Source of the DNA: Quadrisphaera granulorum
GTDB lineage: Bacteria > Actinomycetota > Actinomycetes > Actinomycetales > Quadrisphaeraceae
Reading direction: 5' to 3'
Length of the DNA stretch: 64,000 nucleotides
Assembly: GCF_003149145.1 (NCBI RefSeq)
Contig: NZ_QGDQ01000025.1
Coordinates: 1 to 64,000, forward strand
In this document: positions 23,740-56,356 of the stretch, piece after piece
Layout of the letters: the number at the start of each line of letters is the position of its first letter
Position numbering within the stretch: position 1 is the stretch's first letter
Program-made: the position numbers and the translations under genes
Notes under the pieces: model-generated
Told to the model about the DNA's origin: nothing
Database searches by the model: none
Seen by the model: only the letters and a program-made list of their open reading frames with translations

Positions 23740-25044
23740 TCAACCGACGACGACCCCGCCGAGCACCACCGTCCGCCCGCCCGGCGGTCCCCACAGGACG
23801 TCCGGGCGGGCGAATGGGTCGCCGTCGACGATGAGCAGGTCTGCTGCGAAGCCCACGCGAACGCGGCCCAGGTCGGGTTGCTGCAGCACGTCGGCGTTGA
23901 CCGACGTCGCCGAGCGCAGCGCCTGGAGCGGACCGAGGACGTCGACGTGCAGGCGTAGGCAGTTCAGCTGCTCGTCCTCCAGCGGGCCCATGAGGTCGGA
24001 CCCGAACCCCACCGGCACGCCCGCGGCCAGCGCCAGCGCCAGCGCCTCCCGTCCGGCGGACAGCACCTCGGTGTTCTTGGCCTGCGAGACCGCGCTCATG
24101 CCCAGGTCGGCTCCTCGTCGGGCCATCGCCTCGTAGCAGCCGAGCGTGGCCACGAGCACCGCGCCGCGCTCGGCCATCAGCGAGGCGGTGGCGGCGTCGA
24201 GGAGGTTGCCGTGCTCGATGCTGCGCACCCCCGCGTCCACGGCGTGCGTGATCGCCTCGGGGGAGTAGGCGTGGGCCGCCACGTACGACCCGCGCCGGGC
24301 GGCCTCGTCCACCACCGCGCGCAGCTCCTCGGAGGAGTACTGCGGCACCCGGATCGGGTCGGTCTCGGAGACCACCCCGCCGGAGGCCATGACTTTGATG
24401 GCGTGGGCGCCGTCCTGGAACCTCTCGCGCACGGCGCGGCGCAGAGCGTCGACGCCGTCGACCACCTCGGACAGGTGGGCGTTGCAGCCGCACAGGTCCT
24501 CCCCGCGCCCCCGCACCTCCCCGTGGCCGCCGGTCTGCGACAGCGCGGCGCCGGTGTAGAAGTAGCGCGGTCCCGTGACGAGGCCCTCGTCGAGGGCCCG
24601 CGCCAGCCCGGCATCGCCACCGGCGACGTCACGCACGGTGGTGAAGCCGCGCGCCAGTGCCGCCTCGAGGCGGCGAGCGGCGTTGAGCGCGACGTAGCTC
24701 AGCGGCCATGTCTCGATGTCCCGGGGTGACAGAGCCGCCGCGTAGGCGTGGCAGTGCGCGTCGATGAGCCCCGGCAGCACGGTGCGACCGCGTGCGTCGA
24801 GCACGACACCCCCGGCGTCGCGGACCCGGCTGACGGCGGCGTCGGAAGCTGAGCCGCCGCCGGAGCCGCCGTCACCGTCGAGGACGACGACGTCGACGAC
24901 CCGGCCGTCTTCGACGAGCACGGTGCCCGGGACCGCGGCGTCGGACTCGCCGTCCCACACCGAACCCCCGACGACGGCGAGCCGTGATCCCGTCGTCGTG
25001 CTCGTCACGCTCCTCGTCACGCTGCTCGTCATACCGCTCGTCAT
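23740..25044 (-). CDS. COG1228-type metal-dependent amidohydrolase 1
   Basis: A 434-residue amidohydrolase of the imidazolonepropionase/Xaa-Pro-dipeptidase-like group. The metal site is readable: IDAHCHAYA (HxH), a bridging-type lysine in HAIKVMASGG, AAHAYSP and SIEHGNLLD histidines and the catalytic Asp in GFGSDLMG. The C-terminal small beta domain ends VDGDPFARPDVLWGP. The N-terminus is Thr/Ser-rich and repetitive. The ATG at 25044 overlaps the stop of HyuB-1 as ATGA. It is the third gene of the minus-strand HyuA-HyuB-amidohydrolase unit, probably hydrolysing a C-N bond of a cyclic or acyl amide next to the HyuAB step. It is homologous to the amidohydrolase at 50998-52308. Confidence 0.85.
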   Translation of the reverse strand: MTSGMTSSVTRSVTSTTTGSRLAVVGGSVWDGESDAAVPGTVLVEDGRVVDVVVLDGDGGSGGGSASDAAVSRVRDAGGVVLDARGRTVLPGLIDAHCHAYAAALSPRDIETWPLSYVALNAARRLEAALARGFTTVRDVAGGDAGLARALDEGLVTGPRYFYTGAALSQTGGHGEVRGRGEDLCGCNAHLSEVVDGVDALRRAVRERFQDGAHAIKVMASGGVVSETDPIRVPQYSSEELRAVVDEAARRGSYVAAHAYSPEAITHAVDAGVRSIEHGNLLDAATASLMAERGAVLVATLGCYEAMARRGADLGMSAVSQAKNTEVLSAGREALALALAAGVPVGFGSDLMGPLEDEQLNCLRLHVDVLGPLQALRSATSVNADVLQQPDLGRVRVGFAADLLIVDGDPFARPDVLWGPPGGRTVVLGGVVVG

Positions 25045-55326: not shown

Positions 55327-56356
55327 CGAGACTTCTGGGCAGACTTCTGGGCAGACTTCTGGGCAGGCGGGAGCGCCGCTGCTGCGGGTGCGCGACCTGC
55401 GCCGCTCCTACGGCGGTCCGCACAGCTACGCGGTGCTCGACGGCGTCTCCTTCGACGTCCGCCGCGGTGAGACCGTGGGTGTGGTGGGGGAGTCCGGCTG
55501 CGGCAAGTCGACGCTGGCGCGGGCCCTGGTGCGCCTGGACCCCGTCGACGACGGCCGCGTGGAGCTGGACGGCGTCGACCTCGCTTCGCTGCGAGGGGCG
55601 GCGCTGCGGCGCGAGCGCCGCCGCTTCCAGATGGTCTTCCAGGACCCGTTCGGCTCCCTCGACCCGCGCATGACCGTGCAGCAGCTCGTGGAGCAGCCGC
55701 TGGCCGTGCACGGCACCCCGCCGGCAGAGCGGGCGCGGCTGGTGGCGGAGATGCTCGACGACGTCGGCCTGGGCGGCGACTTCGCCCACCGGTTGCCACC
55801 GGCGCTGTCGGGCGGTCAGCGCCAGCGCGTGGCCATCGCGCGGGCGCTGGTGCTGCGGCCCGACATCACCGTGCTCGACGAGCCGATCTCCGCTCTCGAC
55901 GTGTCGGTGCAGGCGCAGGTGCTCACGCTGCTGCGCCGCGAGCAGCGGCACCTGGGCCTGACGTACCTCTTCATCACCCACGACCTGGCCGCCGCCGAGC
56001 ACTTCTGCGACCGCGTCATGGTGCTGTACCTGGGGCGCGTGGTGGAGACGGCGACGTCGGAGGAGCTCTTCGCCCGTCCGCTGCACCCGTACTCCGCGGC
56101 GCTGCTGTCGGCGGCGCCGCAGCCGCGGGGCACCCGGGAGAGGGAGCGGATCGTGCTGCGCGGGGAGCCGCTGGCCCGTCGTCCCGAGACGGGGTGCCCG
56201 TTCGCGTCGCGGTGCCCGGTCGGGCACGACCGCGAGGTGTGCCGCACGAGCACCCCGGTGCTGGCGCCCGCCGAGGGGGCTCTCGGGCACCAGGTGGCCT
56301 GCCACTTCCCCGGGGAGCTGGTGGCCCAGCCCCTGGAGCGCGCCGCCACCGCCTGA
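55319..56356 (+). CDS. Oligopeptide-type ABC importer, DppF-like ATPase
   Basis: A 345-residue ATPase. Walker A GESGCGKST, signature LSGGQRQRVAIARAL, Walker B ITVLDEPISALD and the C-terminal CPFASRCPVGHDREVC cluster. GTG 55319 overlaps the DppD-like gene by 8 bases. Residues 4-15 are three TSGQ repeats from a 12-bp tandem array. Last gene of the operon. Confidence 0.92.
   Translation: MADETSGQTSGQTSGQAGAPLLRVRDLRRSYGGPHSYAVLDGVSFDVRRGETVGVVGESGCGKSTLARALVRLDPVDDGRVELDGVDLASLRGAALRRERRRFQMVFQDPFGSLDPRMTVQQLVEQPLAVHGTPPAERARLVAEMLDDVGLGGDFAHRLPPALSGGQRQRVAIARALVLRPDITVLDEPISALDVSVQAQVLTLLRREQRHLGLTYLFITHDLAAAEHFCDRVMVLYLGRVVETATSEELFARPLHPYSAALLSAAPQPRGTRERERIVLRGEPLARRPETGCPFASRCPVGHDREVCRTSTPVLAPAEGALGHQVACHFPGELVAQPLERAATA
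55331..55366. repeat. 12-bp tandem repeat x3 at the DppF-like N-terminus
   Basis: ACTTCTGGGCAG at 55331, 55343 and 55355, coding TSGQ three times in frame. Confidence 0.9.

Follow-up and report, generated by a model that had tools for sequence, protein, structure and literature searches.

The first 64,000 nucleotides of contig NZ_QGDQ01000025.1 of Quadrisphaera granulorum (this whole stretch is called the window below) carry a gene island, spanning from the amidohydrolase gene AH1 (23740) to the last ATPase gene of an oligopeptide (Opp)-type importer (56356), in which three pairs of HyuA and HyuB genes lie together with two prolidase-like amidohydrolases, AH1 and AH2. We propose, with a probability of about 0.5, that the island is a catabolic system for cyclic amides of proline (Pro) and hydroxyproline (Hyp), with the 2,5-diketopiperazines cyclo(Xaa-Pro) and cyclo(Xaa-Hyp) as the most likely main substrates. 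The wider claim, that HyuAB and prolidase feed Pro/Hyp catabolism, is very probable from sequence comparison. The link to Pro and Hyp is well supported by gene linkage, and the exact ring is one that we infer.

In the proposed pathway, the CUT2-type and Opp-type importers would take up the ring or related peptides, with a presumed transport specificity, and HyuAB would activate a secondary amide with ATP in HyuA and hydrolyse it at the metal site of HyuB. Phosphorylation or carboxylation of the lactim, followed by hydrolysis at the B-subunit metal site, is proposed in PMC6061476 and PMC8453981. Ring opening would yield linear Xaa-Pro or Xaa-Hyp, because on chemical grounds Pro-CO–NH-Xaa is the one secondary amide of a mixed ring and should alone be able to form a lactim. 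AH1 or AH2 would then split Xaa-Pro or Xaa-Hyp, Hyp would be converted to 2-oxoglutarate via an adjacent operon of epimerase, dehydrogenase, deaminase and aldehyde dehydrogenase, and proline would go to glutamate via PutA. Xaa-Pro released from a ring would be a prolidase substrate, which would account for the joint occurrence of HyuAB and prolidase and for the Hyp genes or PutA next door. The steps would follow one another in this order; the gene content, linkage, catalytic-site conservation and family placement described below were observed.

HyuAB pairs and prolidase-type amidohydrolases

Every gene named in the initial annotation was recovered at its place by Pfam search and gene calling. 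The pairs HyuA1/HyuB1 (28942-25041, minus strand), HyuA3/HyuB3 (41317-37557, minus) and HyuA4/HyuB4 (45350-49232, plus) matched PF01968, PF05378 and PF02538 with E-values from 1.3e-45 to 4e-165. The ATP subunit HyuA1 (26858-28942) also matched PF19278, HyuA3 (39251-41317) and HyuA4 (45350-47428) matched PF01968 at E 5e-101 and 3e-86, and the metal subunit HyuB1 (25041-26840), HyuB3 (37557-39254) and HyuB4 (47421-49232) matched PF02538 at E 7e-149, 4e-165 and 1e-139. The ATP motifs DxGGTxxD, D[MVIL]GG[TS] and GxGGGS were kept in all 29 HyuA rows over 500 aa (28 distinct), the window's three included. The metal ligands of CapB are D41, H99, D102 and H124 (PMC8453981); in HyuB, H99, D102 and H124 were found in 30/30 rows (29 distinct) and D41 in 28/30, the two other rows being gapped at that column. 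All three window pairs keep both the CapB-type metal ligands and the HyuA ATP motifs.

Against the NCBIfam caprolactamase models NF050156/NF050157 (cut-off 1000 bits), the HyuAs scored 485.8, 509.7 and 544.3 bits and the HyuBs 199.0, 268.2 and 208.3 bits, and against the acetophenone carboxylase models ApcA/ApcC/ApcD (cut-offs 1250-1500 bits) at most 277 bits, which means that the window pairs are nearest to caprolactamase, above the carboxylase models and under every specific cut-off. A carboxylase function on acetone or acetophenone was rejected on these family scores. The pairs have the A+B architecture, the ATP motifs and D41/H99/D102/H124 in common with the CapAB caprolactamase of Pseudomonas jessenii and with the HyuAB/oxoprolinase/N-methylhydantoinase references (6yra, 7hk5, 9h03), but unlike these references they sit with a prolidase-type amidohydrolase and Pro/Hyp catabolism.

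In a HyuB tree of 38 rows, none of them characterised, the three window HyuBs fell in three separate clades (starred in the tree). Clade 1 holds Micromonosporaceae, Kribbellaceae, Geodermatophilaceae, Intrasporangiaceae, Streptosporangiaceae, a further family (f38) and the window's own family, and clade 3 holds the window's genus, G035, G441, Arthrobacter-type plasmids and metagenome-assembled genomes (MAGs) of Bifidobacteriaceae, with Ensifer on a long branch of unsure place. That each pair is tuned to its own ring, as had been suggested initially, is plausible from these sequences. For every HyuAB lineage there is at least one locus in which it runs with a prolidase-type amidohydrolase. HyuAB1 does so with AH1 in the window and HyuAB4 with AH2, both in the window and in two same-genus genomes (G001 and G005); HyuAB3 is joined by AH1-type genes in G035, in Arthrobacter and Paenarthrobacter (62-63% identical to AH1) and in the Bifidobacteriaceae MAGs. 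Elsewhere in the same genome (C7:78800-85200, L139), a row of three genes, two of HyuA type and one of HyuB type, resembles an ATP-dependent carboxylase subunit set.

AH1 (23740-25044, minus strand) and AH2 (50989-52308, plus) are COG1228-type amidohydrolases, about 42% identical to each other, and are predicted Xaa-Pro/Xaa-Hyp prolidases. The best PDB sequence matches of AH1 were 3feq/3n2c (312 bits, E 7e-92) and 3mkv (300 bits, E 2.5e-88), the next reaching 177 bits, and a profile of the window AH1 and 25 of the 36 listed relatives left this order unchanged. AH2 had the same first two matches (E 1.8e-67 and 2e-60). The predicted AH1 model (pLDDT 86) matched 3n2c with 43% identity and TM-scores of 0.85/0.89, and the title of 3n2c describes a prolidase complexed with N-methylphosphonate-L-proline. 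The closest solved relative is thus a prolidase, for AH1 by sequence and by fold and for AH2 by sequence. Amidohydrolases bind metal through the residue pattern HxH, K, H, H, D, and among 26 AH1 sequences H93, H95, K213, H274 and D346 were invariant and H254 nearly so. Because both fell under the cut-off of the Caulobacter-type Xaa-Pro dipeptidase model of NCBIfam (NF051886, 500 bits) with 242.4 bits for AH1 and 176.5 bits for AH2, we call them prolidase-like rather than certified prolidases. The fold, the metal-site residues and 42-43% identity are common to AH1 and the COG1228 prolidases 3n2c/3feq and 3mkv; unlike those enzymes, the island amidohydrolases lie under the Caulobacter-type cut-off and occur in runs with HyuAB.

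Linkage to hydroxyproline genes in the window and in relatives

Beyond the genes listed initially, among which the M17 peptidase, the two chemotaxis receptors and PutA described below were also missing, the window holds a Hyp operon (14977-22024, plus strand), made up by Pfam/NCBIfam assignment of a DAO gene (14977-16254), a small 2Fe-2S-type subunit (16311-16607), a Pyr_redox/BFD subunit (16600-18258), a DHDPS-type deaminase (18255-19244), a 4-Hyp epimerase-like gene (19259-20284) and an aldehyde dehydrogenase (about 20456-22024). The small subunit shares 76% identity with L058:17522-17884, itself a match to Fer2_4, and the order DAO, Fer2_4, oxidoreductase, DHDPS-type deaminase, epimerase is that of Streptomyces coelicolor SCO6289-6293 (PMC6608401). 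The window epimerase scored 316.7 bits, under the NCBIfam 4-hydroxyproline epimerase cut-off of 376 bits and top among its family matches. A GntR/FCD regulator (14206-14853, minus; PF00392 and PF07729), HypR-like by position, lies beside the operon, and just before the operon, at 14947-14969, the HypR operator of PMC6608401 is matched twice, in opposite orientations that overlap and with two mismatches each. The whole window had 10 operator matches, fewer than its shuffles (mean 19), so only the position of this pair is telling. To the right of the island lie a LysR regulator (56460-57416, minus; PF00126/PF03466) and PutA, the proline dehydrogenase/glutamate-semialdehyde dehydrogenase (57546-61085, plus; PF01619, PF00171), and with the Hyp operon on the left the neighbourhood therefore points to proline and hydroxyproline.

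The D-Hyp dehydrogenase subunits, the deaminase, the epimerase, the GntR regulator and the upstream operator are shared with the HypR regulon of S. coelicolor; in the accessible text of PMC6608401 that regulon lists a collagenase and, unlike the island, no HyuAB, COG1228 amidohydrolase, CUT2 importer or DUF917. An FGGY kinase, two DAO oxidoreductases and an amino acid permease lie left of the Hyp operon (277-7522), and in relatives a luciferase-like monooxygenase gene adjoins Hyp, OCD or GntR genes (L088 5259-6203, L159 16719-17579).

The association was then counted in a class sample of 216 genomes, own genome included, with cut-offs of E up to 1e-80 for AH1, 1e-60 for the epimerase and 1e-140 for HyuB1. 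AH1 was present in 17/216 and the epimerase in 53/216, and the epimerase was found in 17/17 genomes with AH1 versus 36/199 without it (Fisher p 5e-12), a figure that is inflated by kinship because 14 of the 17 AH1 genomes belong to one family (f38). HyuB1 was found in three of the 216 (own included), each time with adjacent AH1 and with the epimerase about 5-10 kb away. In G076 and G251, CUT2 genes for solute-binding protein (SBP), ATPase and permease directly precede the Hyp dehydrogenase, deaminase and epimerase genes, divergent from HyuA1-HyuB1-AH1, and in G260 AH1 adjoins the Hyp operon with no HyuAB in the stretch covered. HyuB3 was found in 3/394 sampled genomes.

A scan of GTDB contigs with AH1 gave 38 loci in 37 genomes. 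HyuB directly adjoins AH1 in 15 of the 38 loci, and CUT2 genes lie between them in four Bifidobacteriaceae MAG loci. The Hyp epimerase was present in 29 of the 37 genomes; in 14 it shared a contig with AH1 at a distance of up to 40 kb, where random placement would give 0.31, and in 7 the distance was at most 10 kb (0.078 expected), by Poisson expectations that ignore kinship, and no same-contig pair was farther apart than 40 kb. Counted by lineage, with lineages assigned from record titles, the linkage was found in 6 of the 14 lineages having the epimerase, and the epimerase was within 40 kb in 10 of the 15 loci where HyuB directly adjoins AH1.

The fullest counterpart is in Paractinoplanes ovalisporus (G441), where about 31 kb hold AH1-HyuB1-HyuA1, ABM-CUT2-HyuA-like-DUF917-PucR, HyuA3B3, an M17 peptidase, the Hyp operon with aldehyde dehydrogenase, GntR and OCD; unit 4 (HyuAB4/AH2), the chemotaxis receptors, LysR and PutA are not at this locus. 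P. aksuensis (G440) has the same units over about 43 kb, with no DAO, GntR or OCD match beside its Hyp genes in the stretches covered. OCD adjoins Hyp genes in L076, L081, L138 and L159. Four of the six Paractinoplanes loci scanned (L071, L072, L079, L085) have large tRNA arrays past AH1; where the side could be worked out, they lie on the flank of AH1 opposite the Hyp genes.

Six of 56 plasmid matches were opened, a Nonomuraea stretch being set aside as it carried no annotation. On plasmid pYJN5-3 of Paenarthrobacter YJN-5 the order is HyuA-like-DUF917-PucR-type, racemase, MFS, HyuA-HyuB-GAF-amidohydrolase, with PutA as the next annotated gene, and in a Burkholderia cenocepacia plasmid Hyp operon an amidohydrolase 46% identical to AH1 stands between the 4-Hyp epimerase and GntR. 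An Ensifer plasmid has ABM-HyuA-HyuB, then an APC permease, ProC and a tautomerase; the annotation shows no amidohydrolase at this place. On Arthrobacter plasmid p232, an N-terminal fragment of an M9 collagenase is annotated close to the HyuAB/amidohydrolase genes (L146 19257-19898).

Among five genomes of the same genus (G001-G005), G001, G002 and G004 carry units 1-3, with the Hyp operon beside them in G002 and G004, the G001 contig ending past AH1. Unit 4 was found in G001 and G005 only, and G003 gave only weak matches, to the AH2 and HyuA-like queries. The search for the gene set in relatives that the initial annotation had proposed thus found the units co-conserved, rather than each pair in a separate known pathway with no co-conservation.

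The HyuA-like/DUF917 module and other island genes

The HyuA-like gene (33469-34836, plus strand) had no Pfam or NCBIfam match at E 0.001, and was recognized by its similarity to HyuA1 (E 2e-10) and HyuA4 (E 1.6e-8) of its own genome and by its predicted model (pLDDT 81), which matched the HyuA-type chains 9h03 (E 3.9e-14) and 6yra (E 1.7e-9); all seven structure matches with E below 0.001 were HyuA-type chains, with TM-scores by query of 0.49-0.67. None of the three ATP motifs is kept in any of 19 HyuA-like rows (18 distinct), which include distant ones from G035 and two plasmids. Its dN/dS is 0.18-0.19, versus 0.06-0.21 for the other genes of units 1-3 tested, and GGHDLxG is invariant in the HyuA-like rows, so it is not a dead gene. 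Judged by sequence, the HyuA-like protein is a conserved pseudo-ATPase, in which the known ATP site has been lost and which is still under selection. The genome also has, at C1:149440 (L048), a canonical HyuA/DUF917 pair whose ATP motifs are intact.

The DUF917 protein (34833-35918, plus) has both DUF917 Pfam domains (PF06032, PF20906) in common with thiohydantoin desulfurases, but unlike them it scores far under the NCBIfam cut-offs, with 54.2 bits against 450 for S-methyl-thiohydantoin desulfurase and 33.9 against 440 for thiohydantoin desulfurase, and is paired with a HyuA-like protein without an ATP site. Thiohydantoin or sulfur-histidine (ergothioneine) substrates, which had been suggested initially, were rejected on these scores and on the gene context, which is that of proline/hydroxyproline and not of histidine. 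With the PucR-family regulator that follows (35926-37494, plus; PF13556, PF17853), the HyuA-like and DUF917 genes form a module that is conserved with HyuAB and is probably a non-ATP accessory enzyme or a sensor.

Upstream of the module lie the genes of the CUT2-type importer (29725-33442, plus), with SBP (29725-30756, PF13407), ATPase (30885-32450, PF00005) and permease (32447-33442, PF02653), and before them a small protein of antibiotic biosynthesis monooxygenase (ABM) fold (29316-29633, plus), identified through an 87% identical orthologue (L062:17888-18325) that matches PF03992. The ABM gene overlaps the SBP open reading frame at 29584-30756, and the likely SBP start is the GTG at 29725. 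Among the AH1 loci, HyuA-like genes (at least 46% identity) were called in 12, and all 12 also have ABM, 10 by gene calling and two by tblastn; the ABM family was called in 13 loci, and tblastn found no ABM in L066, L087, L088, L131 or L133. A weak ABM-like match (28%, E 8e-4) stands just before HyuA3 in a Bifidobacteriaceae MAG (L100 712-957), as ABM stands before HyuA in Ensifer.

The OCD/mu-crystallin reductase (43448-44446, plus; PF02423) is pyrroline-2-carboxylate-reductase-like, with PRK06141 as best NCBIfam model (132 bits, cut-off 322), and is followed by a second GntR/FCD regulator (44545-45171, plus; PF00392/PF07729). The SBP of family 5 (49346-50992, plus; PF00496) precedes AH2 and belongs to the Opp-type importer (49346-56356), whose permeases (52305-53171, 53171-54253) and ATPases (54250-55326, 55295-56356), all on the plus strand, matched PF00528, PF00005 and PF08352. 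An M17 leucyl-type aminopeptidase (12052-13680, minus; PF00883, E 2e-90) lies left of the first GntR gene; two genomes of the genus also have M17 before their Hyp genes, and in Paractinoplanes it is near HyuA3. Two methyl-accepting chemotaxis proteins (22102-23685, PF00015 and PF12729; 41540-43126, PF00015; both plus) have four-helix sensor domains, a hint of attraction to substrates.

A codon-composition gene caller gave the island genes as the gene set of the span, the overlapping ABM gene being left uncalled, and dN/dS within the genus was 0.06-0.37 for the 16 island genes tested, so the island genes are not chance reading frames. Inside units the genes overlap by 4-8 bases or leave short gaps, which suggests the operons AH1-HyuB1-HyuA1, CUT2 genes with HyuA-like and DUF917, HyuA3-HyuB3, HyuA4-HyuB4 and SBP family 5-AH2.

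Among the intergenic regions, the shared operator words were only short and mostly GC-rich. Across four members of the genus, about 170 bases upstream of hyuA1 (about 28945-29115, minus strand) keep 77-97% of columns identical in each 30-base block, even though hyuA1 itself has a dS of 0.40-0.46. No Rfam family matched the leader above its gathering score, the one match being a chance-level miRNA (E 3.1). Ten relatives share a TTGACA box ahead of hyuA1, together with a conserved CGCCG-GCCAACCGGCGA hairpin-like word and the word CGAAAGG.

Competing explanations and significance

Several observations weigh against the diketopiperazine reading. Within the stretches covered, no HyuB was seen in 19 of the 38 AH1 loci, which means that AH1 and HyuB are separable, and AH1 is not near the epimerase in 23 of the 37 genomes, 8 of them without an epimerase and 15 with it on another contig. 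All five Bifidobacteriaceae MAG genomes are without the Hyp epimerase, and four of them carry HyuA3B3 with AH1, so the product there may be proline or something else, or these MAGs may be incomplete; the epimerase was also not found in three AH1 genomes outside this family. HyuB4 was found in one of 394 sampled genomes, the window's own, and two same-genus genomes outside the sample carry it. A Skermanella plasmid has an amidohydrolase (49%) with a DHDPS-family gene 5 kb away, and no epimerase or HyuAB is annotated in that stretch. On two Arthrobacter-type plasmids a gene of Asp/Glu/hydantoin racemase type (PF01177) stands between the modules and could point to hydantoins. The window HyuAs and HyuBs lie far below the only specific lactamase cut-offs in NCBIfam, and CUT2 importers usually carry sugars. 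Finally, no HypR-type operator was found at the HyuAB promoters in the window scan, and a HypR operator shared by HyuAB and the Hyp operon was rejected.

It is conceivable, though unlikely, that the island is a composite, a mere cluster of parts (Hyp operon, prolidases, HyuAB pairs and DUF917 module) that act on different nutrients with no relation to one another. This would suit the modular unit 4, present in two and absent or not seen in three of the five same-genus genomes, the different regulators of the parts (PucR, LysR and two GntR) and the frequent separation of AH1 and HyuAB, but the linkage recurs in differing arrangements and families, and HyuB1 and AH1 are adjacent in 3/3 class-sample genomes with HyuB1.

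Two further alternatives are about equally improbable. In the first, the amidohydrolase would cleave pyroglutamyl (pGlu)-Pro or pGlu-Hyp, HyuAB would be a 5-oxoprolinase converting pGlu to glutamate, and Pro and Hyp would enter the flanking pathways. COG1228 prolidases accept N-acyl-Pro as well as Xaa-Pro, and this reading would suit the same genes. The HyuAB family includes eukaryotic-type 5-oxoprolinases (PMC8453981, PMC6061476). A housekeeping 5-oxoprolinase is made less likely by the Pxp-type genes elsewhere in the genome, where a PxpA-type gene on contig C16 adjoins a fused CT_C_D/CT_A_B (PxpB-PxpC-type) gene, and a single island would hardly need two or three 5-oxoprolinases. In the second, HyuAB would open hydantoins of proline, Hyp or other amino acids to N-carbamoyl amino acids, from which the amidohydrolase would remove the carbamoyl group. 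The N-methylhydantoinase 7hk5 is the top PDB sequence match of HyuA3 and HyuB3, and the plasmid-borne racemase-type gene (PF01177 where tested) agrees with this alternative, but in the searches made the amidohydrolases stood closer to a prolidase than to any carbamoylase, and no PF01177 match was found among the window genes scanned.

The diketopiperazine reading agrees with the initial idea of a catabolic system with ATP-dependent ring opening, which the present analysis supports, and makes the guess of cyclised peptide degradation products plausible. In a more specific and tentative form, HyuA1B1, HyuA3B3 and HyuA4B4 may be regioselective ATP-dependent hydrolases of Pro/Hyp diketopiperazines that feed a dedicated prolidase, with the pseudo-ATPase HyuA/DUF917 module acting on or sensing a second ring without ATP. 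This form predicts that the product is Xaa-Pro and not Pro-Xaa, and that cyclo(Pro-Pro), lacking a secondary amide, stays closed.

According to PMC3852281, diketopiperazines are abundant in nature and little is known about how they are degraded, and PMC6061476 remarks in passing that cyclic dipeptide hydrolases may be among the genes that carry an oxoprolinase annotation. In the open-access literature searched, which leaves most subscription journals outside, we found no HyuAB linked to Hyp or diketopiperazine catabolism beyond that remark. If the diketopiperazine reading is true, the island would provide a gene-level pathway for the catabolism of natural diketopiperazines. It names concrete HyuAB lineages and their partner prolidases as candidates for assay, and a second oddity that can be put to the test is that the HyuA-like partner of DUF917 has consistently lost its ATP site. 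The finding would also help to re-annotate genes now called oxoprolinase/hydantoinase.

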